DNA from: Micromonospora carbonacea
GTDB lineage: Bacteria > Actinomycetota > Actinomycetes > Mycobacteriales > Micromonosporaceae
DNA: 64,000 nt
Direction of reading: 5' to 3'
NCBI RefSeq assembly: GCF_014205165.1
Contig: NZ_JACHMZ010000001.1
Coordinates: 992,001 to 1,056,000, forward strand
The notes under the pieces were generated by a model that saw only the letters and a list, made by a program, of their open reading frames with translations, did no database searches and was not told the DNA's origin. Made by a program: the position numbers and the translations under genes. Positions 1-16,569 of this stretch are shown piece by piece (within the stretch, counting starts at the first letter, position 1; each line of letters opens with the position of its first letter).

Positions 1-428
1 GCCGCACGCGCCGCCGCCAGGGGTGCGCGGCCTGCACTTCGCTGTTGCTCCGCTCCGGCCACGCAGAACGGCCGGCGACTGGCGCGAAAGCGGGGGAGCC
101 CGCGGGGCCGCCGCAGAACGACAGGCCGTTAACCGTCAGGGGTGGGCCGGCAGCAGGCCGGGCCGCGCGGCCCACAAGCCCGCGCGGCGCAGGGGAGCGC
201 ACGCCGGCCGCGTTCGCGATCTGGCGGCGATAGCGGGCTGTGGCTACTGCGCCTCCGGCGGGGGCGCTCTGGCTCCAGGATGGCCAGGGCTCCGTCGGTG
301 AGCCGCGGCCGTCGGTAATTGCGGTAGGTCATCCCACCTGCCATCGACCCAGGCAAGCCGAGTAAACCCCCGCCCGTTCCCAGGGGCGGCTCGATGGCAG
401 ACGGGATGGTAGCCACAACGTGGCTTGC
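1..428. other. Region without a convincing gene; inverted copies of a shared motif near its right end
   Basis: No open frame here has recognisable protein features. The only structure I see is an inverted pair, CTGCCATCGA at 338-347 and TCGATGGCAG at 391-400. The right arm begins a 23-bp sequence that recurs at 13324-13346. The rest is ordinary GC-rich DNA. Confidence 0.5.
338..413. repeat. Inverted/direct repeat at the 3' side of the AbiTii-like gene
   Basis: TCGATGGCAGACGGGATGG at 391-409, followed by TAGC, recurs at 13324-13342 followed by CAGC, so 22 of 23 bases match. The 14-mer CTGCCATCGACCCA at 338-351 is the reverse complement of the sequence at 13320-13333. Thus the left locus has both orientations, forming a 10-bp-arm inverted repeat with a 43-nt loop. 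It lies 16 bp beyond the stop of the AbiTii-like gene; the second copy lies about 55 bp beyond the stop of the AT-rich membrane-protein gene. The function is unknown; a transcription terminator or a recombination site are the obvious options. Confidence 0.6.
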
Positions 429-1376
429 CTACGAGATCTGTGTAGGTGATGGTGTTTTGAGGGACAGAATCTCTCCGAGTAGAACATATGTTTCGAGGAA
501 CAGATACCTCGCTTCTGAGAGTGTCACGTCATTGTGAATTCCGGTGGAGACTCGGTCATATATTCCTCGCATCGCCTGCCGAAGGCGACCTTGGCGACTC
601 TTGCTGCTGGTGCATTGTCGGACAAAGGCATCAATCCGGTTCAGTACGTTTGACTTGCGTACGTCGACCTTCTGTTCTCCATGCTGAATCGGCTCTTCCT
701 GTGGAGGGAATACAGCATCAGCAAAGCTGTCAATAAGGCGTCGGCATGTGCTCATGGCTTGGCTGATGGCTTCAGGGTCGCCAGCATCCAGGCGCTCGAT
801 GATCGACTCAACCTTCGTGAGTGCTGTGCCGCTCAATGGGGCGAGCATCGAGTCGATATGCTGCCGAGTCGACTCGAACAGCTCTCCTTGTGATTCACTG
901 AAGAGCAGTTCATGATACGTTCGGGTCGCGATTTCGTATAGGTTTGCGATTACGGCAGAGCGAATGGCGGACAGTTCGGCAATGCTGCTCGTGACCTGGC
1001 CTACGTTTCGGTAATGGGCATTCAGTGCGGTGCTCAAATGTTCGCCGCTAAGGCTGGGTGTGTGGAGAGTGCTCAACATTCCCTCTAGGGATTTGATGCT
1101 TGCAGCAATCGCCCCAAGGCTCCCTGTCTTCGCCCGCTCTTCACCCTTTTCGTTCTTGTATATTCGACCCGAACGCTTCAGGTGTGGGCGCGTCGATTGA
1201 TTGAAGGTGTAGCCATTTAGTTCTAGTTGCAGCCATTGCAGGCTATCCTCGTCGCCGATCAATCGGGCGAGCCGAGAAGCTTTGAGTAGCAAATTCTCGG
1301 CGTCGACTCGACTAAGCTCGATGTCCTCAAGAAGATCTTCAGCTAGTCTCAGTGCTTCAGTCTGCTTCTTCAGCAC
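429..1376 (-). CDS. AbiTii-like protein with C-terminal HEPN-type motif (putative phage-defence cargo)
   Basis: The N-terminal ~150 residues match my knowledge of the AbiTii domain of abortive-infection proteins, including LAEDLLEDIELSR and a segment LARLIGDEDSLQWLQLELNGY. The C-terminal part ends in a helical region with R-x5-H (R275, H281 in RVSTGIHND), which resembles the Rx4-6H motif of HEPN ribonucleases. I chose the GTG at 1376 because AGGAAGG sits 8 nt upstream; an upstream TTG at 1418 would add 14 residues (329 aa in all). Base composition is clearly less GC-rich than the neighbours, which suggests recent acquisition. In Lactococcus AbiT needs two proteins, AbiTi and AbiTii; no AbiTi-like gene is seen beside this one. 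The defence role is inferred from domain resemblance only. Confidence 0.7.
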   Translation of the reverse strand: MLKKQTEALRLAEDLLEDIELSRVDAENLLLKASRLARLIGDEDSLQWLQLELNGYTFNQSTRPHLKRSGRIYKNEKGEERAKTGSLGAIAASIKSLEGMLSTLHTPSLSGEHLSTALNAHYRNVGQVTSSIAELSAIRSAVIANLYEIATRTYHELLFSESQGELFESTRQHIDSMLAPLSGTALTKVESIIERLDAGDPEAISQAMSTCRRLIDSFADAVFPPQEEPIQHGEQKVDVRKSNVLNRIDAFVRQCTSSKSRQGRLRQAMRGIYDRVSTGIHNDVTLSEARYLFLETYVLLGEILSLKTPSPTQIS

Positions 1377-1418
1377 AATCTTGACCTTCCTTACCAAGTG
1401 AGGCGCTAGCACGGGCAA

Positions 1419-1923
1419 GCCTGCTTACCCGGACTTTTCCGACGTCCGACTCATCGCTCGGTTGGCCGGGGGCACCCTGAGGCCGCACGAGGCTGTCAGC
1501 CCATGTCATGCGCGACGAGGCTGTCGGGCATAGTAGCTAGCCGGCGGCGGCCGAGGCTACTGAGATCCTGCTGGCGCACGCCAGTGAAGCAAGCCCATGA
1601 GGAGCAGGGACAGGCGGTCGATGGCGATGAGCACGGACAGGCGCATCGCTAGGCCAGCCCCGTGGGCCCAGAGGCCGCAAAGCGTGGCGATGCCTGAGCG
1701 TGGGACCGCTGCCTAATGGATGCTGTCGACAGCCACGGTGATTGCGACAAGACGCTACATGGACAGCCGACAGTGGCCGGGCACGGATAGTCGCCCGAGG
1801 CCGCGAACGCGGACGGACACTGCCGGACGGAGCGCCCAGGACTTACAAGAGAGGGGTCCTGCTCGTGAGTGCCGTACCGGTCGGCGGCGGGTGGTCGGTG
1901 GTTGTTGTGGGGAGGGCTGAACC
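1419..1923. other. Intergenic region upstream of the AbiTii-like gene, no gene recognised
   Basis: About 500 bp between the AbiTii-like gene and the repeat array. A short leftward hydrophobic frame of 29 codons starts at 1646 but has no supporting signal. The segment must hold the promoter of the AbiTii-like gene; I could not define its -35 and -10 boxes. Confidence 0.4.
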
Positions 1924-2149
1924 ATCTCGGCATCTCGGCATCTCGGCATCTCGGCAAGGGTGCTGTTGACCTGCGAAAACGCGCGTGCCGAGATCGTTCA
2001 GGTTCTGCGGCGTGAACTCGGCAACCGGGTTTCATCTCGGCAGAAGGTTGCCGAGTTGCCGAGATCGAATCTGGTCGACCGGTCTAATCTCGGCAGTCTC
2101 TTTGCCCTGCTAGCTGGCCGGTTTCGCCGAGTTGCCGAGCTGCCGAGTT
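1924..2149. repeat. 8-bp iteron array (ATCTCGGC / GCCGAGAT), candidate origin or transfer site
   Basis: Four head-to-tail copies of ATCTCGGC occupy 1924-1955. Further same-strand copies are at 2034-2041 and 2087-2094, with a variant AACTCGGC near 2016. The opposite orientation occurs at 1987-1994 (GCCGAGAT), as a tandem pair at 2050-2065 (GCCGAGTT, GCCGAGAT) and as a tandem triplet at 2126-2149 (GCCGAGTT, GCCGAGCT, GCCGAGTT). The array ends 12 bp from the stop codon of the replication ATPase. Arrays of this kind serve as replication origins or as clt loci, where TraB-type translocases bind 8-bp repeats. The sequence cannot say which applies here. Confidence 0.85.
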
Positions 2150-2161
2150 GGTTCAGCGGGT

Positions 2162-3724
2162 TCAAGCGTCGTGCTGCTCGACCCAGAAGACGGCCCGGTT
2201 ACCGCGCTCGTGTTTGCCGGCTCGAACGACGTGGTTGCCGCGCCAGCGTCCGGCCTGCCCGGTGAGCAACCGGCCGAGTTGCAGCGGGTTGGGTAGGCGT
2301 CCGGCGTGGGTGGTGATGAACTGCCCGTCCCACGGGTCGTTGATGTCGCTGCCGAGGTGCATCGGCTCGGCGTCTCGGCGTAGGTCGGCGGCGGTCATCG
2401 CTCGACTGCCGTGGCGGTCGTGCCAGGTGGTGAGGAACGCGCGCCAGCGCGTCTCGTCTTCGTCGATCTCGCGGACGTTGGTGGCGTTGGTGAGGAATCC
2501 GTCGATGCCGTGGTGGGCGAGGAACCCGCCGAGGGCTTGCGCCCACGGGGTGAACTGCCGCATCGACACCCCGGTTACCCGTGGTGCTCCCTGGCGGGTC
2601 CAGTCGAGGACGAGGACCAGGAGGTGCCACAGGACGGTGAGTTGGTTGGCGGGGTCGGTGATCCACTGGTCGAGGTGCGGGATGCCGAACCCGGATTGGT
2701 CCCGCAGCTCGGGGCGGGGCATGTTCGGGTCGAGGTGGACGCGGACGGTGCGGGAGGCCATGTCCCCACCGACCTGGAGGTTGTTGCCGGTGGCCATCCA
2801 CAGCCGGTCGTTGACGGTGGCGACGTTGCGGGACACGCCGAGCTGCCGATCTGACCACACGCCGGTGGTGACGAGCTGGGCGAGCACGGCGGAGTCGATG
2901 ACGGTTCCCTCGGCGAGGTTGTCCCAGATCACCACCCCCACCTGTTCGGCGAGTACGGCGGTGATGGACTTGCGTAGCTCTTCGTCGGAGTACGCCCACG
3001 GCATGATCCGCTGTCCGTAGAGCATGCCGGGACCAGCGGTCAGGATGGTCTTTCCGGACGATGGCATGGTCGCGTCGATCAGCGCGAACGGCGTCAGCGA
3101 GCGGGTGAAGTGCCGCAGGATCGGCGTGGCCAGCAGGGCCACGTAGTTGGCTCGGTCGGCGGCGCTGGCCCACGGGAAGTCGCGCAGGAACCGGCCGAGC
3201 AGGAACGCGCGTGCTTCCCGCACTTGCTCGGCGGTGGGCTCATCCGGCACGGGCGGCAGGGCGACCTTCGACGCAAGGTAGAGGCCGGTGGCCGGGTCGT
3301 AGCCGGGGCGCTGCAACAGGGTGCCGTCGCGGCGCAGGACCGGGGCACCGATGATCCCGCGCAGCGCCGGCACGTTCGGCCACGTCTTCGCCGCGAGCAC
3401 GGACGACAGGATCTCCCTCGGCGGGGTCACCTCCTCCTCGAAGACCTCCGGATTGCCGCCGTCGCCCTTGCGGGTCTTGAGCCGGTACACGTAGGCGTGC
3501 TCGGCGAGCAGCCCGGCGAGCCCGGCCGGGGTGACCGCACTGGCGGCGACGGGTAGCGGGGAATCGTCGTCAGGGCCGGTGGTCAGGCCACCGGAGACGG
3601 CTTCCATGTGGACCAGCGACCCGGCCGACACGTACGTGTCAGGTAGGACACCGTCGACCAGCGCGGCCTTGAGGACCCGGATGGTTTCCGGCCCTGAACC
3701 AACCTGCAACCGGGGGGCGCTCAT
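2162..3724 (-). CDS. AICE replication ATPase / putative helicase
   Basis: 520 aa. It has a P-loop ATMPSSGKT at residues 218-226 and a Walker B-like VVIWDN at 264-269, followed by a sensor-like WMATGNN and an arginine-bearing ASRTVRVHLD. This layout fits the plasmid/AICE replication ATPases that sit beside prim-pol primases and probably act as the element's helicase. Its start overlaps the primase stop by 4 bp (ATGA), implying translational coupling. The gene is followed within 12 bp by the 8-bp iteron array, consistent with Rep acting at a nearby origin. Family assignment rests on context and motifs; the exact helicase superfamily is uncertain. Confidence 0.78.
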   Translation of the reverse strand: MSAPRLQVGSGPETIRVLKAALVDGVLPDTYVSAGSLVHMEAVSGGLTTGPDDDSPLPVAASAVTPAGLAGLLAEHAYVYRLKTRKGDGGNPEVFEEEVTPPREILSSVLAAKTWPNVPALRGIIGAPVLRRDGTLLQRPGYDPATGLYLASKVALPPVPDEPTAEQVREARAFLLGRFLRDFPWASAADRANYVALLATPILRHFTRSLTPFALIDATMPSSGKTILTAGPGMLYGQRIMPWAYSDEELRKSITAVLAEQVGVVIWDNLAEGTVIDSAVLAQLVTTGVWSDRQLGVSRNVATVNDRLWMATGNNLQVGGDMASRTVRVHLDPNMPRPELRDQSGFGIPHLDQWITDPANQLTVLWHLLVLVLDWTRQGAPRVTGVSMRQFTPWAQALGGFLAHHGIDGFLTNATNVREIDEDETRWRAFLTTWHDRHGSRAMTAADLRRDAEPMHLGSDINDPWDGQFITTHAGRLPNPLQLGRLLTGQAGRWRGNHVVRAGKHERGNRAVFWVEQHDA

Positions 3725-4650
3725 GCCGCCACCACCCGAGGCTGCCGCGCGCCGACCCGTAGGCCGGACGCGATCGTGCGGGCGATCTCACCCGGCCGCA
3801 GCCCGATGGACAGGGCGGCGGGTTCGAGAACCGCGGTGACGTCGTCGTCGGTGAGCGCGCCCCCGGCGGCGAGCTGCCCGAGGGCGACGGCGGACGCGAA
3901 CAAGGCGTGGTTGCGGCGGCCTTCCGGCGCGGAGGTCAGGTGCGCCACCTGCCGGTGGATCGCGGCGGAGATGTACCGGCCGCGCCGGTCGACGTCGAGG
4001 GTCACCGTGACCGCCTGCCGGGCCGGCGGCGGGGCGGGCGCGATGAGCTGGCCGAGCCAGTCGGGCAGAGGGGCGGGATCGACGTCGAGCGCGACGGTGT
4101 AGCGCCGGCCGTGGGCGGTACTGCCGGCGGCGACGACGTAGCCGCCGTGGGCGCGGGTGTCGACCAGCCACCCGAGCGCCCCGGCGGTGTTTCGCAGCGT
4201 CGGCCCGCTGGAAGGGTGGCGGTAGTAGAGGTGGGTGCCGCCTCGCCCGGTGGTCACCGTGTACGTGGTTTCGATGCGCTGGCCGTGCTGGTGGCAGACG
4301 GTGGCGAAGACGTCCACGCCGTCGCCGCACAGGTCATGGTCGGCCGGCGGGATCTGACCCGGCTTGGGCACGTCCAGGTCGACCACCACGAGCCGGGACG
4401 GTCCGCAGGCGAGGCCGATTCCGTACGGTCGGACCGACCATGCTCGGCGGATGCGGTCGGGGTCGGTGGTGGCGCGGGCTTCCCAGCCGAGGTGCCGGCC
4501 GGCGGCGCGGCAGCGGGGGTCGGTGCGGTCGCACCGGTCGGCGGCGTGGTTGGGAAACGCGGGCCGCTTGTCGTCGGGGCGCAGCGGGAAGACGTGCCAT
4601 CCGCGTGCGGCGTGGGCGAGTGCGGCGGCGAGCAGGTCGAGGTGGGACAT
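3721..4650 (-). CDS. Bifunctional DNA primase/polymerase (prim-pol domain)
   Basis: 309 aa. The archaeo-eukaryotic primase/prim-pol fold is supported by the catalytic DxD in VVVDLDVP (D91, D93) and the TGRGGTH motif ending in H140. A Cys/His cluster near residues 40-53 (C40, C47, H53) looks like the zinc knuckle common in this family. It should make primers and extend DNA from the element's origin. It is the first of a coupled pair with the replication ATPase. Upstream are a small membrane-protein gene and the 11-bp repeat array. RepSA-type elements use a different replicase, so this is a prim-pol-type AICE. Confidence 0.9.
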   Translation of the reverse strand: MSHLDLLAAALAHAARGWHVFPLRPDDKRPAFPNHAADRCDRTDPRCRAAGRHLGWEARATTDPDRIRRAWSVRPYGIGLACGPSRLVVVDLDVPKPGQIPPADHDLCGDGVDVFATVCHQHGQRIETTYTVTTGRGGTHLYYRHPSSGPTLRNTAGALGWLVDTRAHGGYVVAAGSTAHGRRYTVALDVDPAPLPDWLGQLIAPAPPPARQAVTVTLDVDRRGRYISAAIHRQVAHLTSAPEGRRNHALFASAVALGQLAAGGALTDDDVTAVLEPAALSIGLRPGEIARTIASGLRVGARQPRVVAA

Positions 4651-4680
4651 GGTGCCTCCGATCGGTGGGTGCGGGCGGGG

Positions 4681-4920
4681 TCAGCGGCGGTGGGTGAGCA
4701 GCGCCCAGATCACGAAGCCGGCGACCGTGATGACGGCGGCGGCGGTGAGGGCGGCGGCGGTGAGGTCGCGGATGAGCCAGCCGGTGACGCGGGCGCGGGT
4801 GAGGGCGGCGTCGGCGTGCCACGCGATGCGTTCGACGCGGCGGCCGAGGGGGATACCGAGAGTGATGCCGAGGATGGTGCCGAGGGCGAGGGCGGCGAGC
4901 GCTACGGCGGCCGGGTTCAT
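4681..4920 (-). CDS. Small two-TM membrane protein of the element
   Basis: 79 aa, starting at the ATG at 4920, which has GGGAG a few bases upstream. There are two hydrophobic segments, near residues 5-25 and 52-75, separated by a basic/amphipathic stretch. The frame could be extended to 5034, but that extension is translated from the 11-bp repeats and gives a repetitive STWNP leader, so I rejected it. It lies between traB and the primase on the same strand. No family is recognised; it may help in transfer or spread, which is inference from position. Confidence 0.65.
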   Translation of the reverse strand: MNPAAVALAALALGTILGITLGIPLGRRVERIAWHADAALTRARVTGWLIRDLTAAALTAAAVITVAGFVIWALLTHRR

Positions 4921-4955
4921 GGCTGCTCCCTGGTTGTGGGCGTGGTCGGCCGGCC

Positions 4956-5034
4956 GTGGATTCCACGTGGATTCCACGGCGGGTTTGTCTAGGTGGGGGC
5001 CGTGGAATCGGTGTGGATTCCACGTGGATTCCAC
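4956..5034. repeat. 11-bp palindromic repeats GTGGATTCCAC, two tandem pairs
   Basis: GTGGATTCCAC occurs at 4956-4966 and 4967-4977, and again at 5013-5023 and 5024-5034, all abutting without spacers inside each pair. A partial inverted copy, GTGGAATC, is at 5002-5009. Each unit is itself a palindrome of GTGGA arms around one base. The block starts 18 bp after the traB stop codon and ends upstream of the start at 4920. In Streptomyces plasmids clt commonly lies just downstream of traB, so this is a strong clt candidate. It could equally be an operator for the primase genes. Confidence 0.85.
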
Positions 5035-5052
5035 GGCCCCGACAGGGCTGCG

Positions 5053-6999
5053 TCAGGCGGTGCGCAGGATGCGGTACCGGCCGTTGCGGTTGATGGCCAT
5101 CAGCAGCGGTTGGTTACCGGCGGTGAGTTCGGCGAGGGCCTTGGACAGCCACTTGGCCGTGTAGCCGGTCGCGGCGAGCACGTCACCCAGGTCGGCCGGT
5201 CGCACCTCGGTGTGTCCCTGGGCGGCGAGGGCGGTGATGTGCTCGCGCAGGATCGCGCGGGCATGCTCGGGGCTGGACTGCTGGGGCAGAGCGAGGGAGA
5301 ACCGGCGCGGCGTGGGGGTGGTGTCGAGTTCGTGTGAGGGGTCGACGTCGTCGGGCGGGTCGTTGGGGTTGACGCCGGGGCGGGCGGCCATGGCGGGCAC
5401 CTCCTGGTCCTCATCGTCGTCGGCGGCCGGTTGGGGGCCGGGTGACGGCTTGACGGTGTCGGTGGGCATGACAGGCGCGAGAGCACGCGCGGTGACCGGG
5501 TCGAGCGGACGGCGGACGGCGGTCCAGCCGGTGACCGCGGCGGCCAGGTCGGCGCGCTGGGCGAGTTCCGAGCGGCAGGGGATCGGCCACCGGCCGGTGG
5601 GGATGCCGGGCGACTCGATGTAGAGGTAGCCGGGTTTGCTGCTGCCCCACGACTCGGGGGAGGCTCCGGCGTCGACGGTTTCGCCGGACAGCGCCAACGA
5701 CGGGTCGTCGCGGCTGTCGATGCCGAAGCACACGTTCGTAGCGAACTGGCTGCGGAGGGAGGTCGGGGCCCGGTCGTGGGTCCAGCGTTGCTGGGACAGC
5801 ACGAGGGAGATGCCGGCCGACCGTGCCCGTTCGGCCACCTGCACCAGCGCGGGGTGACCGGACCACGCGGCCGACTCCTCCACCCACACCGTCAGGTGCG
5901 ACAGCGAGCATCCCGGCATCCACTCGGTCAGGTCCTCCCGGCCCAATGCCTCCGTGCGGGCGGGGATGACCTGCTCGGCGAGGACGTCGAAGAACGCTTC
6001 CGCGTGGTCGTCTTCGGTGACCAGCAACGTCAGCCCGGCCTTGACCGGCTTGATGGTCTGGTCCCGCTTGACGGTGTCGACGACGATGAGCGCGCCGTCG
6101 GTGCGGGTCAGGTAGTCGGTCATGACCACCAGGGCCCATTCGGTCTTGCCCGAACCCGTCATGCCGGTCGCCCGGACGTGGGTGGCGGGGCGGACGCCGG
6201 GCCGGCCGGTGAGCCACAACCCGACCTGCTCGCCATCCTCGGCGATGCCGAAGCGAAGCGGAGCGTCCCCAACCGATCGGCCGGGGGCGGACGGGCCGGC
6301 CCACGGGATCGTGTCGCGGAGCTGGTCGACGGGCACGACTTCGATGCGGCCGCTACGGACGCTGTCGGGGTCGCGGTGCACGCGCACGGCGGTCGGGGCG
6401 ACGTCGAGGGCGGAGGCGATGGACTCGCGGGAGCCCTCGACGTCGGAGAGGGTGTCGCCGTGCGGCATGGTGATCGACGCTTTGACCTTCGCCCCGTCGA
6501 TCTTCGGTCGGCCGATGCGGGCGTCGCGTAGCGCGGCGACTGCCTCGGCGAGCCCGCCTCCGGTGGTGCGGGCGGGTTGCTCGTCGGGGTTGGCCTTCGC
6601 CATCAGCCGCATGACCGCGACCGCGACCGAGGCGGCGACGGTGCCGCCGGCCCATATGTCCAGCCACGGCCGTTCCCAGGGTGCGCCGATGGTCGCCCCG
6701 AGGGCCCACACCGACCCGGACGCGGTGAGCAGGGTCGCCACCCGCTGCCGGATGACACCCCGCGCCCGGCCGGTGGCCCAGGTCAGCGCGGTGAGTCCGC
6801 CGCCGGCGGCGGTGATGCCGGCGGCGGCCCACGGGTTGCTGCCCCACCAGTGGTGCGACGCGGCGGCGGCCGGCCAGGCGAGCAGGCAGCCGGTGGGGCA
6901 GGCCAGGTAGGGCAGGAGCGCCGAGCGCAGATCGACGCCGTAGGTCATCGGGGACAGGCCGCTGTTGCGGGGCATCCGGGACGGGCGGGGCCGCTTCAT
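5053..6999 (-). CDS. traB: FtsK/SpoIIIE-type DNA translocase, conjugal transfer protein TraB
   Basis: 648 aa. Three or four hydrophobic segments lie between residues 27 and 133, then a motor domain with Walker A GMTGSGKT (279-286) and a Walker B-like LTVWVEES (369-376). After a proline/acid-rich linker (about 500-565) the last ~75 residues form a winged-helix-like region ending in NRNGRYRILRTA, comparable to the FtsK gamma domain that reads 8-bp DNA sites. Proteins of this kind move double-stranded DNA between mycelial cells during conjugation. The start at 6999 overlaps the preceding stop (ATGA). The proposed clt repeats lie directly downstream. Confidence 0.93.
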   Translation of the reverse strand: MKRPRPSRMPRNSGLSPMTYGVDLRSALLPYLACPTGCLLAWPAAAASHHWWGSNPWAAAGITAAGGGLTALTWATGRARGVIRQRVATLLTASGSVWALGATIGAPWERPWLDIWAGGTVAASVAVAVMRLMAKANPDEQPARTTGGGLAEAVAALRDARIGRPKIDGAKVKASITMPHGDTLSDVEGSRESIASALDVAPTAVRVHRDPDSVRSGRIEVVPVDQLRDTIPWAGPSAPGRSVGDAPLRFGIAEDGEQVGLWLTGRPGVRPATHVRATGMTGSGKTEWALVVMTDYLTRTDGALIVVDTVKRDQTIKPVKAGLTLLVTEDDHAEAFFDVLAEQVIPARTEALGREDLTEWMPGCSLSHLTVWVEESAAWSGHPALVQVAERARSAGISLVLSQQRWTHDRAPTSLRSQFATNVCFGIDSRDDPSLALSGETVDAGASPESWGSSKPGYLYIESPGIPTGRWPIPCRSELAQRADLAAAVTGWTAVRRPLDPVTARALAPVMPTDTVKPSPGPQPAADDDEDQEVPAMAARPGVNPNDPPDDVDPSHELDTTPTPRRFSLALPQQSSPEHARAILREHITALAAQGHTEVRPADLGDVLAATGYTAKWLSKALAELTAGNQPLLMAINRNGRYRILRTA

Positions 7000-7382
7000 C
7001 GGCCACCCCCGCCGCCGTTGGTGAAGCGGAAGTCGGACTTGCGGGGCCGGTGGCCGACGGCCTCCAGCTCGGGCAGGTAGACGGCCTCGAAGCGGGTCGA
7101 CGCGGTCACGATGTACTGCGACGCGACCACCAGGGCATCGGAAGCGTGGGTGATGGGCTTGGCGACCTGGCGGGCGCGCGCCCGGCCGGTGAGTCCGCCG
7201 ATTACCACCCCGCCGGAGACGGCCCGAAGCCGGGCGTCCAGCTCGGAGGCGGTCACGCCCAGCTCCAGGGCGGCGGCGTGCAGGATCCGGCGGGTGTCGT
7301 TGAACCACTGGGACAGGGCGACGTTGTCGGTGAGGGCGTCGGCGCCGGTGAAGATGCCACGCTGATCGTGGGTGCCTGCCAT
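6996..7382 (-). CDS. TraA-like plasmid transfer protein
   Basis: 128 aa from the ATG at 7382. The sequence beginning MAGTHDQRGIFTGADALTDN and the segment QWFNDTRRILHAAALELGV resemble a small soluble protein that commonly precedes traB in Streptomyces and Micromonospora integrative elements, often annotated as plasmid transfer protein TraA. No catalytic motif is visible. It overlaps traB by 4 bp and so is co-translated with it. The name rests on recall of the family; a role as TraB accessory factor is inferred from position. Confidence 0.6.
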   Translation of the reverse strand: MAGTHDQRGIFTGADALTDNVALSQWFNDTRRILHAAALELGVTASELDARLRAVSGGVVIGGLTGRARARQVAKPITHASDALVVASQYIVTASTRFEAVYLPELEAVGHRPRKSDFRFTNGGGGGR

Positions 7383-7530
7383 GCTGATGGTTCTCCTTCG
7401 TGGAGGGCCGGGCGCGGAACGTTTCTCAGGCGTGCGCCGCGCCCGGCGCAAACAGGTGAGGTGGGCCGGTCGGCCCCCGCACCCACCCGAACCCCTTCCG
7501 GGGTGCGGGTGAGCACGGCCGGGTGACCGG

Positions 7531-7995
7531 TCAGCCGAGCAGCAGGACCAGGGCGGCGGTGACCGCGGTGCCGGCCAGGCCGCACAGGAGCAGGTCGACG
7601 GCGGTACGGACGCGGCGGTACTTCGCCACCGTCGTGCGTGACAGCCACACCAGCTCGTGCGCCCGCAGCGACGCCATGCTCAGCGGCGGCAACGCGGCGT
7701 CGGTCATCAGGTCACCCGGGGCGCTGACGGCGTAGCGGTCGGGGCCATGCCCGCCGCCGAGCGACGGACGCACCGCGCACGCCAACAGGGCGACCGCGAC
7801 ACCGATCACCGTGACCGTTATCGCTCCGGTGGGGAGGGCGGGTGCGGGCAGGTCGGCGCGGGCCAGCACGGCCAGGCCGACGGTGAGGGCGGTGCCGGCG
7901 AGCGTGAGCAGCGTCGAGGCTTTCGCGTCCACGCGCACCAGCTCGGCGCGCACGGTGGCCAGTTCAGTGGTCAGGAAGCTGGTGTCTGGCACCAT
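7531..7995 (-). CDS. PycTM-like (Pycsar-effector-type) two-TM protein in the transfer cluster
   Basis: 154 aa. An N-terminal helix with ELVRVDAKASTLLTLAGTALTVG runs into a first hydrophobic segment (about residues 26-45) and a second one (58-75). A C-terminal hydrophobic helix lies at 134-153. This pattern, especially the D-x-K-A before the first membrane helix, is typical of the PycTM family, whose founding members are cyclic-pyrimidine-activated membrane effectors. No nucleotide cyclase gene is nearby, and the gene sits among transfer genes, so a spread or entry-exclusion role is at least as likely as defence. The 148 bp upstream of traA show no gene. Confidence 0.6.
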   Translation of the reverse strand: MVPDTSFLTTELATVRAELVRVDAKASTLLTLAGTALTVGLAVLARADLPAPALPTGAITVTVIGVAVALLACAVRPSLGGGHGPDRYAVSAPGDLMTDAALPPLSMASLRAHELVWLSRTTVAKYRRVRTAVDLLLCGLAGTAVTAALVLLLG

Positions 7996-8080
7996 CAGAG
8001 GTCTCGCCTTCCATCAGGAGGAGTGAGGGCCGGCGGCACGGCATGGGTTTCCAGGCCAGGGGCCGTGCCGCCGGGCGTAG

Positions 8081-8935
8081 CTAGTCGTCGGCGTGCATCA
8101 GGTGCGCGAGGGCCGCGCCCATGCCGAGTACGGCGACGGGTAGGCAGGCGACGAGGGTGGTGATCCACCAGGGGGCCGAGGTGACTCCGGCGGCGATCAG
8201 CAGGTGGTAGGCGACCTGGCCGAGTGCGCCGATGGCGAGGGAGCCGAGGGCGGACCACTTGGCGAACCGGGCCGCCCGTGCGGGTACGCGGCCGGAGAGC
8301 CACACGTAGAGGGCGAACGCGCCGTAGGTCTCGACGCCGATCGGGAGGGTTATGGCGGTGTCGATGACCCACCCGGACCCGATGCCGGGCAGGAGGTTGA
8401 CCTTCCCGAACCCGGTGAGCTTGCCGAGGCCGACCCAGCCGCCCCAGATGGCGACGAACGCGGGCAGGGCGAGCAGGATCACCGGCCACACCACCGCCCG
8501 ACGCGACCGCGCGGGCCGAATCTTGGTACCCGGGCTTTCGACCATGCTGACCTGCTCAGCCGGCGACCCGGCCACCGGCGGCGGGGCGGGGGTCGGGTCC
8601 GGTGCGGTCTGCTCGGGCCGCTCGGGCGTGTCCGGGTCCGTCCCGTCGGTGTCGGTGTCCGGGGTGGGGTCGACCGGGACCAGCACCGGCCGGTCGGCGA
8701 GGCTGCCGCGGAGCACCATCGCGGCGTGCAGCGAGTCCGCCCGGTCCTGCTGGGCGCGTTCCTCCCGCAACCGGGTCAGCAGCTCGTTGGCCTTCTCCGA
8801 CCCGATCCGGAACCGCTTCATCAGCCGGTTACGCGACGGCAGCGCGTCCAGCTCGTGAGCGAGCTTCCGGGCCGCCGGAAGCAACTCGTCCACGGGTTGC
8901 GGGTAGCGGGTGCCGTTGATCGTGGGGGCGGTCAT
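8081..8935 (-). CDS. Spd-like membrane protein (DUF2637-type transfer spread protein)
   Basis: 284 aa from the ATG at 8935, with GAAAGGA upstream. The N-terminal third (about 20-80) is a soluble helix-turn-helix-like region, RNRLMKRFRIGSEKANELLTRLREE. A Pro/Asp/Thr-rich linker follows (about 105-165), then four hydrophobic segments to the C-terminus. This layout matches SpdB/DUF2637 proteins of actinomycete plasmids and AICEs, which help spread transferred DNA through mycelium. They are sometimes mislabelled as ABC permeases. It is coupled to the upstream Cys-rich gene by a 4-bp overlap. Confidence 0.7.
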   Translation of the reverse strand: MTAPTINGTRYPQPVDELLPAARKLAHELDALPSRNRLMKRFRIGSEKANELLTRLREERAQQDRADSLHAAMVLRGSLADRPVLVPVDPTPDTDTDGTDPDTPERPEQTAPDPTPAPPPVAGSPAEQVSMVESPGTKIRPARSRRAVVWPVILLALPAFVAIWGGWVGLGKLTGFGKVNLLPGIGSGWVIDTAITLPIGVETYGAFALYVWLSGRVPARAARFAKWSALGSLAIGALGQVAYHLLIAAGVTSAPWWITTLVACLPVAVLGMGAALAHLMHADD

Positions 8936-9096
8936 CGGGTGTCGTCCTTTCGGGTAGTGGTGGGGGCGGTGCAGCACTGGCCGTCCGGGGCGGGACAGCC
9001 GTGCAGGCACGCGCCGCAGGACTGCTCGATGCAGTGCTCGCCGGTGTCGTCAGCGGCGCAGGCCACCGGGTCGCAGATGCAGCAGGCGGGGGGCAT
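8932..9096 (-). CDS. 54-aa cysteine-rich protein
   Basis: Starts at the ATG at 9096, overlapping the previous stop, and its own end overlaps the Spd-like gene. Ten of 54 residues are cysteine, with spacing C-C-x-C, C, C, C-x2-C, C and a terminal C-C, plus two histidines. This suggests one or two zinc sites. Tight overlaps on both sides argue that it is translated. I do not recognise a family; position suggests an accessory role in transfer. Confidence 0.6.
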   Translation of the reverse strand: MPPACCICDPVACAADDTGEHCIEQSCGACLHGCPAPDGQCCTAPTTTRKDDTR

Positions 9097-9434
9097 CAGC
9101 CCACCGCCACGGCGGCGAGCGCGTCGGCGGTGGCCGTGTCCAGCGGCGACACGTCGAGGTAGTCGGTGGCGTCGGCGTAGATCTCCCAGCCGTGCCACGT
9201 CGGGTAGGCGTTCAGGGACCGGACCGGGCGACCGTCGTTGTTGACGCGCTCACGCTCGGCGGTCAGCAGGTTCGGGGCGTTCAGGCCGGCGGCGTCGAGC
9301 CAGGCACGCAGCTCGCCGACCGACCCGAACGTGATCGCCATGGAACTGCCGTCGCTGTGGACACGGATGCTGGTCGGGGCGGCGAGCAACAGCAGCTCGG
9401 CCATCACCGCGCGGTGGCTCTTGCGGTCGGTCAT
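9096..9434 (-). CDS. Conserved hypothetical element protein, 112 aa
   Basis: The chosen ATG at 9434 overlaps the upstream stop (ATGA). The protein, MTDRKSHRAVMAELLLLAAP at the start, looks like a small soluble alpha/beta protein with a segment SSMAITFGSVGELRAWLDAAGL. It has no membrane helix or catalytic motif. It belongs to a chain of four overlapping genes (9550 down to 8081). Function unknown. Confidence 0.6.
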   Translation of the reverse strand: MTDRKSHRAVMAELLLLAAPTSIRVHSDGSSMAITFGSVGELRAWLDAAGLNAPNLLTAERERVNNDGRPVRSLNAYPTWHGWEIYADATDYLDVSPLDTATADALAAVAVG

Positions 9435-9550
9435 CGCCGGGTCTCCTTCATCTTCGGGGTCGGCAGGTTCAGCGCGTGCCCGATGGCGAACGGGGCGAGC
9501 ATCACGGCGGGACCGCCGAGCAGGATCAGCAGCAGAAGCAGCCAGGTCAC
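9431..9550 (-). CDS. 39-aa single-TM peptide
   Basis: A GTG start at 9550 is preceded by GGAGGT with a 5-nt spacer, one of the best ribosome sites in the element. The product begins MTWLLLLLILLGGPAVMLAP, a single membrane helix with a short basic tail. It overlaps the next gene by 4 bp. Such mini-proteins are common in AICE transfer operons, but no function can be assigned. Confidence 0.6.
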   Translation of the reverse strand: MTWLLLLLILLGGPAVMLAPFAIGHALNLPTPKMKETRR

Positions 9551-9632
9551 GGGGCACCTCCAATCGACTGGGGAGAGCAGGCCGGCTCGGTGCAGGTCAG
9601 CAGGTGGGACGGCAGCCGAGGGGCGACGGTCA

Positions 9633-9884
9633 TCACGCGACTCGCGGAACCGGAACACCGCGTACCGCGAGCAGGGCCCGCGCCTCGCGGAGCACCCGGC
9701 GCTGTGCGCGGCGCAACCGCTGCCAGTCCATTTCGCTCGGTACGGCGTCGCTGAACAGGAGCGTGATCTGAGCGTCGAGCAACATCACCTCTGCCTCGAT
9801 CAGCGGCATCTCCTGCTCGATCGCGGCGAGGTCGGTGGTGCTCGGCTCCCGGAACTCTTCGGGGTGTCTCTGCGGCTCAGCCAC
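9633..9884 (-). CDS. DUF6284-like small protein
   Basis: 83 aa from a GTG at 9884. The stretch TDLAAIEQEMPLIEAEVMLLDAQITLL followed by an Arg-rich helix (RLRRAQRRVLREAR) matches my memory of DUF6284 proteins found in actinomycete mobile elements. It is predicted to be all-helical and soluble. It is the first gene of the leftward transfer operon and is divergent from the HTH gene at 10001. The shared 116-bp intergenic region carries palindromic repeats that probably regulate it. Confidence 0.6.
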   Translation of the reverse strand: MAEPQRHPEEFREPSTTDLAAIEQEMPLIEAEVMLLDAQITLLFSDAVPSEMDWQRLRRAQRRVLREARALLAVRGVPVPRVA

Positions 9885-9936
9885 GTCGGCTGTCCTTTCG
9901 ATCTAGAAGGGGTTCGATTCAGAGATGCGATTCTCT

Positions 9937-9992
9937 GTTGCGCAACAAGGTAGCGATACGCGGCGAGGTTGCGCAAGTGGGTAGCGGTAACG
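9937..9992. promoter_or_regulatory. Palindromic direct repeats, probable operator between divergent genes
   Basis: The palindrome GTTGCGCAAC is at 9937-9946, and TTGCGCAA recurs at 9969-9976, 31 bp (three helical turns) away. Each is followed by a near-identical tail: GGTAGCGATACG at 9949-9960 and GGTAGCGGTAACG at 9980-9992. The second copy lies 9-32 bp before the GTG at 10001. A dimeric repressor binding both copies could control the leftward transfer operon and the rightward HTH gene at once. The small HTH protein next door is the obvious candidate. Confidence 0.65.
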
Positions 9993-10000
9993 TTGTTCGG

Positions 10001-10237
10001 GTGACTGACCCTCGGGACGAACTTTCAGCAGCTACGAAGCGCTATCGGCGTACCGAAGCGGCCCATGAAGCGGCGCGTGAGGCCGTGGTCGCGGCTGTCG
10101 TTGCCGCGCTCCGGCAGGGCGTGGGGCCGACCGAAGTTGAGCGGCTGTCGCCCTTCAGCGGTGCGTACATCCGGAAGCTCGCGCGGCAGAACGACGTGCC
10201 CGCCGCGCCTCCCGGCCCCAAGCGCGCGGCTCGGTGA
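10001..10237 (+). CDS. Small helix-turn-helix protein, putative regulator
   Basis: 78 aa. I start at GTG 10001 (MTDPRDELSAATKRYRR); no ribosome site precedes it, and the operator-like repeat with a TAACGT box lies just upstream, so a leaderless message is likely. After a long charged helix, the segment GVGPTEVERLSPFSGAYIRKLARQN reads as a helix-turn-helix with its recognition helix near residues 47-62. The tail is basic. It is probably an element regulator acting on the palindromes upstream. Starting at 9938 would place codons across the operator and is less likely. Confidence 0.6.
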   Translation: MTDPRDELSAATKRYRRTEAAHEAAREAVVAAVVAALRQGVGPTEVERLSPFSGAYIRKLARQNDVPAAPPGPKRAAR

Positions 10238-10247
10238 GGGCGGGCGG

Positions 10248-10511
10248 TCAGCTGGCCTTCCGTCGCGTGTAGTCCTCGGCGTTGACCAGGCCGGTGGTGA
10301 GCGCGGATTCCTCCATGTCGTCGAGGACCCGAGCGGGGATGACCAGTCGGCCACGGACCTTGATGGCTGGGAACTGCCCAGCGTGGATCGCTCGGTACAG
10401 CGTCACCTCCGACATGCCGAGGATGGTGGCAACCTCCGACACGGAGTGGAAGCGGGGGCGCGGGTGGTGGGTGATCGTGCGTACGGTGCTCAACCTGATC
10501 TCCTGAACCAT
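10248..10511 (-). CDS. xis: Excisionase-like HTH protein
   Basis: 87 aa from the ATG at 10511. The core FHSVSEVATILGMSEVTLYRAIHAGQFPAIKVRGRLVIP (residues ~20-58) is a classical excisionase/MerR-type winged helix (HTH_17). A short acidic-then-basic tail follows. In AICEs this protein acts as recombination directionality factor, favouring excision by the integrase. Here it is separated from int by 4.4 kb of other genes, an unusual arrangement. It could alternatively be a plain regulator of the same fold. Confidence 0.75.
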   Translation of the reverse strand: MVQEIRLSTVRTITHHPRPRFHSVSEVATILGMSEVTLYRAIHAGQFPAIKVRGRLVIPARVLDDMEESALTTGLVNAEDYTRRKAS

Positions 10512-12917: not shown

Positions 12918-13080
12918 TGGACCATCATGCCGAGAAGGAGCCGCCAGGGATGCACGGGGATGTCTCCTGGTGAACATGGGGTCGAGCCTGACTGTGACCT
13001 GTTGGCGAGCTGGCCTGTACTTGGATCAAGAGCGCCGCGCGGCGCGGGTCGGGGCGCGGCAATCGGCTCCTGCGGAGCCG

Positions 13081-13110
13081 CCGCCCCGGCTGCCTGCGGA
13101 GCCGGGGCGG
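13081..13110. terminator. GC-rich hairpin, possible terminator
   Basis: CCGCCCCGGCT at 13081-13091 pairs perfectly with AGCCGGGGCGG at 13100-13110 across an 8-nt loop. A smaller CGGCTCC/GGAGCCG hairpin precedes it at 13064-13080. There is no U-tract, as is normal in high-GC actinobacteria. It lies 290 bp beyond the 3' end of the leftward membrane-protein gene, so it could end that transcript before the epimerase gene. Confidence 0.4.
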
Positions 13111-13323
13111 AAGGTCAACCGGCCCGCAAACCACGCCGACACCCTGAATCCCGAGAGTCACCGGCAGCGAGGGCCCGTCTGACCGGCGTAGCGGCACCCG
13201 ACGAGCTGCCCGGATCCAGTGGCCGAAACGTCGGCGGGTTGCGCCGCGGATGCAGGCTAGAAAGACCGCCTTCGGCCGGGAACTCCGGCTCCGGGATGGT
13301 CGGGATGCTCCGGCCTGTGTGGG

Positions 13324-13346
13324 TCGATGGCAGACGGGATGGCAGC
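13324..13346. repeat. Second copy of the 23-bp cargo-flanking repeat
   Basis: TCGATGGCAGACGGGATGG plus CAGC, differing by one base from the copy at 391-413. Both copies have the same orientation relative to an AT-rich leftward gene and lie just past its stop codon (55 bp here, 16 bp at the left). Confidence 0.65.
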
Positions 13347-13400
13347 AAGTTGAGCTCAGGTCGGGCCTTCTGCCGCTGCAACGTCAGTAGCCAGTCGTGT

Positions 13401-14279
13401 TTATGGGCACCGATCGTGTGAGTAGGAAGTCGTACCTTTGCGTAGTTTGAGAAGTGGGCGATTAGCCCACTGCGGCAGATCGTCGCAAGTCTGACGTGAC
13501 TTGAGCTCGGACAGGGGTATCGTACGAACCTTGCCTGCTGTCGCGTCGAGAAAAGTGATTTGGTCTTCACTCTGCTGTAACGCGTATATCTTGCTCGGTT
13601 TGACACTTGGGCCAATATTTGCGGATTCTGCCGGCAGCCACATCGATCCTGAAACTATTTCATTTAGAAATACCACGAGAATCATTGGGAGGATGGTCGA
13701 TGTGGCCCCCTTTGGCCATGAAGTGCTTTCCCTGTCGCTACCTGCATCTACCAATGAATAAGCCCCCCACAGTATTCCCAAGAATGTGGCAAGGATAACC
13801 ATTATTGCCGGCAGGAGGAAAAATGCTGTCCCGATTATAGGAAGAGCGCTTCCGCTGGCGGCCAGCCTTAATGGTGATACGAATTCTTCTGAACCGGACT
13901 TCTTGGCTCTCGTGAGCTTGTGTGCGGGAAACCAGATCGTCCATGCTATTAGGGCCGCCAGGGAGAGCATCCACACTATGGGGGTTAGGACTGATACTAG
14001 CAATCCCTGAATGTTAAGTGTCTTAGCGAGATGCAAAAATGTTGCCCTATCGCCCGCCGAGACGACAAATATTTTGAACGAGGCTAGTAATGCCCCTATG
14101 AGGGGGATGGCGACCAAGGGATCCATGCCGTGGTCGCGCGTGAATGAAAGAAGGCGCATGAATGGTGGCGTTGCTGTTGGTGTCCGGACTTTTCGCTGAG
14201 TTGGTATTTCTTCAGAGAAGTCTTTGACTTCGCCAAATTGGTTGTTGGGTCGCGTTCTGCGCTTTCCCCTGTTGGTCAT
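13401..14279 (-). CDS. AT-rich multi-TM membrane protein, unknown function (cargo)
   Basis: 292 aa from an ATG at 14279 with GGCGGA upstream. A basic N-terminus (MTNRGKRRTRPNNQFGEV) is followed by hydrophobic segments near residues 56-75, 92-118, 143-172 and 195-215, then a soluble C-terminal domain of ~75 residues containing IYALQQSEDQITFLDATAGKVRTIPL. No family is recognised. Its base composition is far less GC-rich than the flanking genes and similar to that of the AbiTii-like gene, so it was probably acquired separately. A defence or exclusion role is possible but unsupported by motifs. Confidence 0.65.
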   Translation of the reverse strand: MTNRGKRRTRPNNQFGEVKDFSEEIPTQRKVRTPTATPPFMRLLSFTRDHGMDPLVAIPLIGALLASFKIFVVSAGDRATFLHLAKTLNIQGLLVSVLTPIVWMLSLAALIAWTIWFPAHKLTRAKKSGSEEFVSPLRLAASGSALPIIGTAFFLLPAIMVILATFLGILWGAYSLVDAGSDRESTSWPKGATSTILPMILVVFLNEIVSGSMWLPAESANIGPSVKPSKIYALQQSEDQITFLDATAGKVRTIPLSELKSRQTCDDLPQWANRPLLKLRKGTTSYSHDRCP

Positions 14280-14398
14280 GTGTCTTCCGCCTTCGCGTGG
14301 CCAGCTGAGCTGGCGGGATGCGGGTCCTCGGATTGATGGTAGCGAAATTGCTTGCGTAAGGAAACGGCTGCTGCTTGGTTGGAGCGCGCAGGATCGGC

Positions 14399-14540
14399 CG
14401 TACAGCCATCCGTGCTGTCAAGTTGGCTGACAGGCACCGTCTGGGGCCGACCGGAGGATCCACGACGGCCCGGCAGACATGGTCAACGACATAGGTCGAA
14501 AGGAGTCTCGATCTTTGCAAGGCCAGCGTTGCGGCCTTGA
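14399..14540. repeat. Diverged ~140-bp non-coding repeat, copy 1
   Basis: Shares with copy 2 the words GTACAGCCATCCGT (14400-14413), GGGGCCGACC (near 14443) and GATCTTTGCAAGGC (14510-14523), in the same order and similar spacing. Between them is a recognisable CGAAAGGAGTCT, matched by CGAAAGAAGTCT in copy 2. The two copies are offset by 271 bp. The palindrome that is perfect in copy 2 is degenerate here. Confidence 0.6.
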
Positions 14541-14661
14541 GGGCCGCCCCCAACGGGCCGCAAGACGAGCACCCAGGCATCGTCGGATGAACACGACAAG
14601 GCGAGGCCAGCACGACCAGCCAGGATCGAGAGTCAGCACTCTTAATCCGCTGCTCTGTCGA

Positions 14662-14695
14662 GGCTTGGCTGTACAGCCATCCGTACAGCCAAGCC
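14662..14695. promoter_or_regulatory. 13-bp perfect inverted repeat (operator-like)
   Basis: GGCTTGGCTGTAC at 14662-14674 pairs with GTACAGCCAAGCC at 14683-14695 across the 8-base spacer AGCCATCC. The symmetry and spacing suit a dimeric DNA-binding protein. It heads repeat copy 2 and lies upstream of the membrane-protein gene, and downstream of int. Confidence 0.5.
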
Positions 14696-14813
14696 GGCCG
14701 ACGGACATAGTCCGGGGCCGACCTTGGGCGACACAGCGGGCAGGTCAGCGACAGTCGCCGACGCTGGCCGAAAGAAGTCTTGATCTTTGCAAGGCGGGGA
14801 TAGTCGTTGCGCT
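14670..14813. repeat. Diverged ~140-bp non-coding repeat, copy 2
   Basis: Begins with GTACAGCCATCCGT at 14671-14684 and ends past GATCTTTGCAAGGC at 14782-14795. Both copies lie in the 660-bp gap between the integrase gene and the membrane-protein gene. They could be binding arms for integrase or excisionase, a duplicated promoter, or the scar of an old insertion; nothing in the sequence decides. Confidence 0.6.
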
Positions 14814-14940
14814 CGCGGCCTGCCCCTGCGGGCGGCCTCCGGCCTACCGGAAAGTCGCTGAGATCACTTCACTGTCGCCTTCCTAAACCATTGTCGGCAG
14901 AGTGGATACATCGTGCTTGAGGGAGGGAGACTCGTCGCGG

Positions 14941-16428
14941 CTACCCGTCGGGCTGTCCTGCGACGGTCGCCCGGCGACCTCGGGCAACGTTGACCAGGCC
15001 GTCTGCTGCCAGGAGAGCCACTGCGCGGTGAGCGGTACCGACTGAGGCTCCATGCGCCGCAGCCAACTCGGCGACCGAAGGAAGCGGGTCACCCGGCTTG
15101 AGGCTCCCGGTGCGGATCTGCTCGCGTAGTCCTTCGGCAATGACTCGGTACGGGCTGCTCGGTAGCGTGGGCGAGGTCGGGCGCGTAGGCATCCGGGCAG
15201 CGAGGGTGCCGGCGGCCCGCTGGTCGGACTCCGACAGCCACGCGGCGTAGACCCGGAGAGTGGTGGTGCCACCGCCACCGTGACCGAGCCGGCCGGCGAC
15301 GGTACGCACGTCGACACCGGCATTGATCAGCTCGGTTGCCGAGTAGTGGCGCAGGGCGTGAATGTGGCTGTCGATGCCGAGCCGCTTGGCGAGCCGACCG
15401 TATCGCTGGGTGATGGTGTCGGGGCGGTAGCCGCGGCTGTTGTCCGGCTCGGGGGAGAAGACGTAGTCGGCCGGGTCGGCCGTCGCGTCGAGCTGCGCCA
15501 GGCGGTCGACGTACCGCGCGTGTAGTTCGGCAAGTACGGCGACCGTCTCGGGGTCGAGGGCGACTCGGCGTTGCTGGTGGGTCTTGGTGTCCTTCTCCTG
15601 TAGCGCGCCGTCGGCGTCGAGGTAGGCGCTCCGCCGGAGAGTCAGCACGCCGGCGGCCAGGTCGAGGTGATGCCAGCGCAGCGCGGCCAACTCGCCCCGT
15701 CGGGCACCGGTGGTCATGGCGAGCCAGACCAACGCGCCCCAGTCCGGGTCGCGCCACGACTCGGTGATGATGCGGGCGGCGTCGGTCGGGTTCGGCGGTT
15801 GCGGGTCGGGGTGCGGCGGGGCGGGTGGTTCAGCCTGTGCGGCAGGGTTGACCGCGATCCAGCGCCACCGCACCGCCCGACTCAGCGCACCGCTCAGGAT
15901 CCAGTGGATCTGTCGTACGGACGATGGGCTGAGCGGCTTGCAGACGTGCTGGCGGCATCTCGCGGTACAGGTGTGCTCGCCCTTCACCCGGTGCGTGACG
16001 AACGCTTTGCCACCGCACCAGTCCCGGCAGCGGCGCAGACTCGCGTAGAACGACTCCAACGTCTCGGCGTCAAGCCGGCCGACCGGCAGCTTGCCGAGCG
16101 TCGGCCGTACGTGCTTGTCCAGCTTGTTCTCGTACCCCATGCGGGTGGTGGCCTCAATGTCGGCCACCTCAAGCCATCGGTCTAGGAGCTGGTCGAGCGT
16201 TGCGCGCGTGCGCGGGTTGCGCCGCTCGTCGACCTGGGCCAGCAACCGGGTGCGTGCTTTCTCCGCTTCCTTGGCGGCGGTGCGGCCGGCGGGGATGACC
16301 TCGGTCAGGTAATGCCGCTTGCCGCTAATCGGGTCTACCCCCGCGTAGACCTTCACGCGGAGTGACCCACTGGGCAGGGTCTCGACCTCGCCGCGCTGCC
16401 GCTTCGTGCGTCCGTTCGAACTCGCCAC
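14941..16428 (-). CDS. int: Tyrosine site-specific integrase with C-terminal GntR-type domain
   Basis: 495 aa from a GTG at 16428. An AP2-like N-terminus and core-binding domain contain a Cys/His insertion (C134, C138, C154, C158, H161, C163). The catalytic domain shows R243 (TTGARRGE), H357-x-x-R360 (HALRHYSAT), H383 (LGH) and nucleophile Y394 (LRVYAAW). Residues 426-490 then form a GntR-like winged helix (YRVIAEGLREQIRTGSLKPG and GASVGTAHRAVALLAADGLV). The gene lies 69 bp from the tRNA-Arg 3' end, the expected attB of this family. The fused GntR-type domain is unusual and may sense host state or autoregulate int. Confidence 0.93.
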   Translation of the reverse strand: MASSNGRTKRQRGEVETLPSGSLRVKVYAGVDPISGKRHYLTEVIPAGRTAAKEAEKARTRLLAQVDERRNPRTRATLDQLLDRWLEVADIEATTRMGYENKLDKHVRPTLGKLPVGRLDAETLESFYASLRRCRDWCGGKAFVTHRVKGEHTCTARCRQHVCKPLSPSSVRQIHWILSGALSRAVRWRWIAVNPAAQAEPPAPPHPDPQPPNPTDAARIITESWRDPDWGALVWLAMTTGARRGELAALRWHHLDLAAGVLTLRRSAYLDADGALQEKDTKTHQQRRVALDPETVAVLAELHARYVDRLAQLDATADPADYVFSPEPDNSRGYRPDTITQRYGRLAKRLGIDSHIHALRHYSATELINAGVDVRTVAGRLGHGGGGTTTLRVYAAWLSESDQRAAGTLAARMPTRPTSPTLPSSPYRVIAEGLREQIRTGSLKPGDPLPSVAELAAAHGASVGTAHRAVALLAADGLVNVARGRRATVAGQPDG

Positions 16429-16496
16429 GCGGCAAACCTAGCTCGCTCGCACCACGGATAGCCCCACGCGGCTCGATCGGCTGAGAGAAAGTGCTG

Positions 16497-16569
16497 TGCG
16501 CCCGGCAGGATTCGAACCTGCGGCCTTGGGATTAGAAGTCCCCTGCTCTATCCGCTGAGCTACGGGCGC
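16497..16569 (-). tRNA. tRNA-Arg (anticodon UCU), integration site
   Basis: The minus strand folds as a cloverleaf: acceptor GCGCCCG paired with CGGGCGC, D arm GCTC/GAGC, anticodon loop CTTCTAA giving UCU, and T arm GCAGG-TTCGAAT-CCTGC. Position 73 is A; CCA is not encoded. One G-A mismatch closes the outer end of the anticodon stem. The 3' end faces the integrase gene, the arrangement expected for a tRNA used as attB by the AICE. Confidence 0.95.

Follow-up and report, generated by a model that had tools for sequence, protein, structure and literature searches.

An AbiTii gene with a predicted HEPN-like domain is replaceable cargo of a tRNA-Arg integrative element in Micromonospora carbonacea

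Introduction

Fusions of an AbiTii domain to HEPN domains of the c2405 and Ymh types were described in 2013, and a ribonuclease (RNase)-based abortive action was proposed for them (PMC3710099). The idea of an AbiTii-HEPN fusion is therefore not new. Here we analyse such a gene, called abiTii below, in a 64,000-nt stretch of Micromonospora carbonacea DNA (the window). Coordinates are those of the window, and negative positions lie outside it, before position 1. What is new is the setting: abiTii is replaceable cargo of an integrative element at a tRNA-Arg gene.

The c2405 fusions have the same layout as the window protein, with AbiTii at the N-terminus and HEPN at the C-terminus of one chain (PMC3710099). 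Most of the window protein can also be aligned with a proteobacterial-type branch of homologues that bears a C-terminal helix-hairpin-helix, which fits the description of c2405 in that paper. As described there, however, c2405 domains keep the H of the motif and lack the R, with a helix-hairpin-helix in few of them, whereas the actinobacterial-type branch carries R275 (119/121 rows) and has no helix-hairpin-helix; the comparison is one of descriptions. AbiT of Lactococcus has the AbiTii domain in common with the window protein, but lactococcal AbiTii comes without a HEPN domain (PMC3710099) and is paired with AbiTi (PMC3985639). No AbiTi-like neighbour of abiTii was recognised; the AbiTi model was silent in the M. 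carbonacea genome, but also in every control genome.

Two further systems resemble the window protein in architecture. Tha, from Staphylococcus aureus prophages, is likewise a single protein, ~300 aa long: the fold of its N-terminal part is unknown, its HEPN domain occupies residues 184-296 at the C-terminal end, and the protein defends against phage by RNase activity (PMC11087260). It differs in its R-x4-H motif and in being triggered by phage tail proteins (PMC11087260), and its likeness to the window protein is by description. ApeA also joins an N-terminal domain to a C-terminal HEPN domain in one protein and occupies the same pocket in a sister element (L091), but its N-terminal domain is ApeA_NTD1 and its HEPN domain belongs to another family.

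Results

An AbiTii protein in a transferable cassette

The gene and its parts are listed here.

429..1376, minus strand: AbiTii-HEPN protein gene, GTG start, 315 aa; found by Pfam and PADLOC; ratio of nonsynonymous to synonymous substitution rates (dN/dS) 0.07 against the copy in genome G428
849..1346, minus strand: AbiTii domain, residues 11-176; PF18864 56.6 bits, PADLOC AbiTii 62 bits
465..893, minus strand: HEPN-like C-terminal domain, ~residues 162-304
534..554, minus strand: R275-VSTGI-H281 motif; H281 in all three branches of the family, R275 in one clade only
738..743, minus strand: R212-R213, in 361/361 rows of the three branches
1..1858, no strand: portion of the cassette inside the window (full span -47 to 1858); 82-90% DNA identity with the G428 element

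The initial annotation had described an AT-rich, foreign-looking gene with an AbiTii-like N-terminus, and both points were borne out. The Pfam match to PF18864 lies above the cut-off of 27.6 bits (5.1e-15), the PADLOC AbiTii model matches the protein at 2.2e-17, and the GC content of abiTii is ~0.55 compared with ~0.65-0.77 across most of the surrounding element. An alternative upstream TTG start at 1418 would lengthen the open reading frame (ORF); the GTG start is preferred because the closest homologue (P0003, 96% identity) is also 315 aa long and has the same start. Among 5.8 billion proteins, 266 homologues were found at E <= 0.001, the best being the 96% match from Micromonospora sp. FIMYZ51. 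NCBIfam and PHROGs scans of the protein gave nothing notable, and a phage collection searched with it yielded zero matches. At the DNA level, an Rfam scan of 1-2600 returned no match and a sigma-70 scan found no promoter-like site at the locus.

A 96% identical AbiTii protein is encoded in G428, a genome of the same genus, where it resides in an unrelated element whose two borders, 20.6 kb apart, are 44-base copies of the end of a tRNA-Val gene. When the own element was compared with 38 kb of G428, the DNA match was limited to -47 to 1858, and the nearest integrase match in G428 reached 30% identity over 194 residues. The cassette is thus mobile between elements. Between the two copies, 54 of the 68 differences are synonymous, and the resulting dN/dS indicates that the AbiTii-HEPN protein is maintained by purifying selection.

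A replaceable slot near the distal attachment site

The element that carries abiTii has the following features.

16496..16539, no strand: attachment (att) repeat, 3' end of the tRNA-Arg gene; exact 44-bp copy at -264 to -221, outside the window
14941..16428, minus strand: tyrosine integrase with a C-terminal GntR-type helix-turn-helix (HTH), from Pfam
3721..4650, minus strand: backbone, Prim-Pol replication protein, from Pfam
5053..7308, minus strand: backbone, TraB-like transfer protein; 451.5 bits, below the model's equivalog cut-off of 800
1925..2095, no strand: cluster of eight TCTCGGCA octamers, four in tandem; candidate TraB recognition or clt region
130..1791, no strand: replaceable cargo slot 1 (the abiTii pocket); flanks align with the sister element in genome G377, the interior does not
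12960..14928, no strand: replaceable cargo slot 2; an AT-rich membrane gene (13401-14279) here, other genes in G377

The integrase gene adjoins the tRNA-Arg gene (16496-16569), and the exact repeat of its 3' end gives an element of ~16.8 kb. Features by which actinomycete integrative and conjugative elements (AICEs) are recognised were found together: a tyrosine integrase, att repeats at a tRNA gene, a replication protein (Prim-Pol) and an FtsK-type transfer protein (TraB-like, below the cut-off). With abiTii as the recognised gene closest to the distal att copy, its placement at the far end of an AICE proved correct. The TCTCGGCA octamer occurs 10 times in the window against 2.6 expected; its cluster may serve in TraB recognition or as clt.

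Of 160 genomes searched in the genus, 29, own included, encode the integrase at E <= 1e-80, and just two, the own genome and G428, encode the abiTii protein; none of the 14 genomes with related elements therefore carries abiTii. The closest relative, in G377, uses the same tRNA-Arg gene. The own element aligns with it from 1792 to 16578, and two stretches, 130-1791 and 12960-14928, are replaced. In slot 1 the G377 element (L102:1203-3125) has three ORFs instead of abiTii, with no Pfam match over the cut-off and no PADLOC match. Its slot 2 holds a D12 methylase (PADLOC PD-Lambda-5_B, 5e-64), a HerA-like ATPase (6e-19) and a transposase.

The pocket count covers the 12 related elements, out of 14, in which both att copies were located; the other two, L089 and L092, yielded no second att. 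Several relatives have replication modules unlike that of the window, so the same pocket was defined as the 5 kb that adjoin the distal att on its inner side. Pocket ORFs came from a simple script and were picked by eye, with Pfam run on 20 of the 52 listed and PADLOC on 10, four of which matched, two of them weakly or generically. As a rough control, PADLOC matched one of 10 chromosomal window ORFs (of 30 listed), an ATPase-like protein. Defence-associated families were found in the pockets of 5/12 relatives.

L091, 14142-15536: ApeA_NTD1 with HEPN_Apea
L093: NOV_C, classed as defence-associated in part from a weak PADLOC HmaA match (3e-5)
L096, 2752-3822: Beta_protein, a component of a P4 defence locus
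L097, 3969-5960: DUF7380 with DUF4209; PADLOC PDC-S39, 7e-198
L100, 5064-8444: McrB- and McrC-type genes, in a short element (att copies 8.7 kb apart)

McrBC is a restriction system. L097 also contains a DUF4145 match below the cut-off (E 0.006). A TY-Chap1 protein in L094 and an Excalibur protein in L101 were left outside the defence count, and nothing was recognised among the pocket ORFs scanned in L088, L090, L095, L098 and L099. ApeA and DUF4209/C6orf70 are both HEPN families (PMC3710099). Titles and abstract openings of the literature on AICEs and defence, and on Micromonospora AICEs, gave no description of such an att-proximal pocket. Another cargo gene of AICEs, near defence genes, has been reported (PMC11706625), so defence-linked cargo on AICEs is as such not new.

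A predicted HEPN-like fold and its conserved residues

The C-terminal domain was modelled separately because a long helix dominated the full-length fold searches, in which HEPN structures were absent among the matches listed. Model confidence (pLDDT) was 93.2 for the full-length protein and 85.7 for the domain alone. In a VIA-align search with the domain model, HEPN structures topped the list: seven of the first 16 rows are titled HEPN and two MntA-HepT. R275 forms the end of helix 259-276 in the predicted model and H281 sits in the following loop, the usual position of the HEPN motif. By sequence, the domain had zero Pfam, NCBIfam or PHROG matches to a HEPN family; DUF4145 was matched only at E 0.021, in 5/38 members, and no solved relative was found (best E 0.99). 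The HEPN-like C-terminus claimed by the initial annotation thus stands as a predicted fold that aligns best with HEPN structures, but not as a family match by sequence profile. A HEPN fold is supported but not proven.

Three branches of the family were aligned, with 121 actinobacterial-type, 120 proteobacterial-type and 120 Firmicutes-type rows (the best 120 of 266, 618 and 490 hits, respectively, plus the query in the first set). R275 is present in 119/121, 0/120 and 0/120 rows, and almost every row of the latter two branches has L, I or V at its position. H281 was scored in 121, 120 and 119 rows, the remaining Firmicutes-type row being a gap; the sound actinobacterial-type count is 120/120, because the truncated P0036 stops short of the motif and is wrongly aligned at that point. 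R212, R213 and E202 occur in 361/361 rows and N246 in 360. HEPN motifs range over R-x4-6-H.

In a 59-row tree, which carries a long-branch warning, the R275 rows form one supported clade (100/100), mainly actinobacterial, with two label changes. The clade includes L019, which has neither R nor H. R-x5-H is therefore a clade feature, and H281 with R212/R213 is the feature of the family: the annotated motif is present at the end of a helix and the start of a loop, but it is not the signature of AbiTii-HEPN proteins as a whole. A hint from the first 43 loci, that the other branches have, instead of R275, a lysine three positions ahead of H, was rejected, as 66/120 Firmicutes-type rows have neither residue and 10 actinobacterial-type rows have both.

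Neighbours of the relatives and AbiTii proteins with other tails

Around 43 loci with abiTii relatives, 437 ORFs of at least 80 aa within 6 kb were clustered. One cluster, with members at three loci, consists of adenine-type DNA methylases. In L011, L023 and L030 a type I M-like gene precedes the relative, matching solved M proteins at E 4e-14, 1e-17 and 6e-10, respectively. Including L026, type I restriction-modification genes lie directly upstream on the same strand at 4/43 loci, three in Firmicutes and one in an actinobacterium. In L026 (Faecalibacterium, 999-10993), the AbiTii-HEPN gene shares its first 4 bases with the end of an HsdR gene (E 2e-256), and a type I M gene (E 1e-190) lies 7.4 kb upstream. 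The gaps to the upstream gene are 35 bases in L030, 74 in L023 and 373 in L011; the L030 ORF at 35 bases is HsdS-like solely through its similarity to the L023 protein. ORFs of at least 200 aa with [ND]PP[YFW] number 4/111 within 2 kb of abiTii relatives and 2/255 beyond. ORFs of L025 and L027 compared with solved structures gave no match.

Other clusters reflected shared synteny of Mycolicibacter and Mycobacterium, or were MerR-like and mixed with scattered distances and strands. In L004, L012 and L015, integrase-like genes (judged by eye) lie within ~320 bases of the abiTii relative. Plasmids also carry relatives of abiTii, as do genomes of other phyla. Beside abiTii in the window, a Pfam scan showed no restriction-modification gene. 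The annotated lack of an adjacent partner thus holds for this locus, but the type I genes upstream in 4/43 loci mean that the gene is not always alone. Many HEPN families occur in restriction-modification operons (PMC3710099).

PF18864 was found in 20/300 genomes of the family and 15/396 across the phylum (own included in both; L128, a partial, sub-cut-off match, excluded from the phylum sample), counts in which HEPN-type members may be under-detected by the model. None of the 19 other AbiTii proteins of the family matches the window protein by BLASTP at 1e-4. Instead of HEPN, 12 of them end in an uncharged hydrophobic stretch (L057-L062, L064, L066-L069, L072; hydropathy at least 1.86), as do 7/15 others in the phylum sample (at least 1.79), giving 19/34 by a hydropathy window used with no topology program, on which 4/120 HEPN-type rows also exceed 1.6. 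A profile of the HEPN-like domain run against the 35 AbiTii proteins of family and phylum matched the query and no other. Lactococcal AbiTii has been predicted to be membrane-located.

Some separate observations concern these families and the element. Two adjacent AbiTii genes, both hydrophobic-tailed, lie at G546:C1:3493024-3494420 (L122, L127). The M. carbonacea genome has a Ymh-family match elsewhere (PF09509, 1.9e-21; G000:C1:6276895-6277233, L051). The integrase HTH spans residues 427-489 (PF00392, 2.5e-14), and its fusion is largely conserved in the integrase family, since 23/30 other genus matches align to residue 490 or beyond. A small backbone protein with two transmembrane segments at 7531-7995 matches PycTM (PF18967, 38.4 bits, cut-off 27.2) and is 81% identical in G377; a role in transfer, or as a Pycsar-like effector, is conceivable.

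Discussion

We consider abiTii to be probably a transferable abortive-infection gene, in which a single protein would combine AbiTii sensing with HEPN-type RNA cutting and so stop phage. This reading is drawn from the AbiTii match, the HEPN-led fold list, the conserved H281, R212, R213 and E202, the dN/dS of 0.07, the replaced pocket with defence families in 5/12 relatives and the type I neighbours at 4/43 loci. The single-gene organisation at this locus, the AICE-type carriage and, by association with the pocket families, the defence role suggested by the initial annotation are supported. The N-terminal AbiTii domain may sense or receive an infection signal, and the long helix would link it to the C-terminal HEPN-type domain. 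The latter would dimerise and cut RNA, in keeping with the RNase action predicted for AbiTii-HEPN fusions (PMC3710099), which would halt growth of the phage and probably of the cell too. As a ~1.9-kb cassette, the gene passes from one integrative element to another, and here it lies in the att-proximal pocket that houses other defence genes in some sister elements; some relatives elsewhere are linked to restriction-modification genes.

Alternatively, the HEPN-like domain could be a non-catalytic dimerisation or RNA-binding domain, the protein blocking phage by binding a target. Such a role would suit the c2405 HEPN family, which keeps H and lacks R (PMC3710099), the aliphatic residue in place of R275 outside the actinobacterial-type branch, and L019, a member of the R clade that lost both residues. 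We nevertheless regard it as unlikely, given R275 in all but two rows of its branch, H281 in all sound rows and the invariant R212, R213 and E202.

There is a rather small probability that abiTii serves the element itself by excluding competing elements or addicting the host, with phage defence incidental. The location of abiTii near att and the clt-like repeat cluster, and its movement between elements, are consistent with this. Against it stand the lack of a recurrent antitoxin-like partner, the phage-defence families in the pocket of sister elements, and the relatives on plasmids and in other phyla, some of them beside restriction-modification genes.

The type I genes that immediately precede the relatives of L011, L023, L026 and L030 raise the idea of a restriction-modification back-up that fires when the type I system is blocked, abiTii here watching a system encoded elsewhere. 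With that arrangement at 4/43 loci only and no restriction-modification gene found beside the window gene, we hold this to be improbable. Finally, it is very hard to credit that abiTii and the membrane protein at 13401 form a working pair, as the initial annotation had suggested: both genes are AT-rich cargo of one element and AbiT of Lactococcus comprises two genes (PMC3985639), but they lie 12 kb apart in different, separately replaced slots, and the membrane protein has a relative in 1/14 related elements (L098, 25%, in a genome without abiTii) and none found among the 43 abiTii loci.

Returning to abiTii as a transferable abortive-infection gene, a broader proposal can be made tentatively, at somewhat less than an even chance. 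AbiTii may be a general infection-sensing module that is joined in Actinobacteria to alternative killing parts, a HEPN RNase here and a membrane segment at the C-terminus elsewhere. Under the same proposal, the tRNA-Arg element family would have in its att-proximal pocket a hotspot where small defence systems are exchanged, several being HEPN proteins that differ in their sensors.

The name AbiTii is long established but has little mechanistic work attached to it, and a full-text search for it brought up PMC3710099 and PMC3985639 only. The locus offers AbiTii in a compact single-gene form on a transferable cassette, with residues that are candidates for the active site and with relatives that naturally lack R or are broken. 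The pocket, for its part, is a pointer to more small defence systems in actinobacterial integrative elements, which may include the unrecognised genes in 5/12 relatives.
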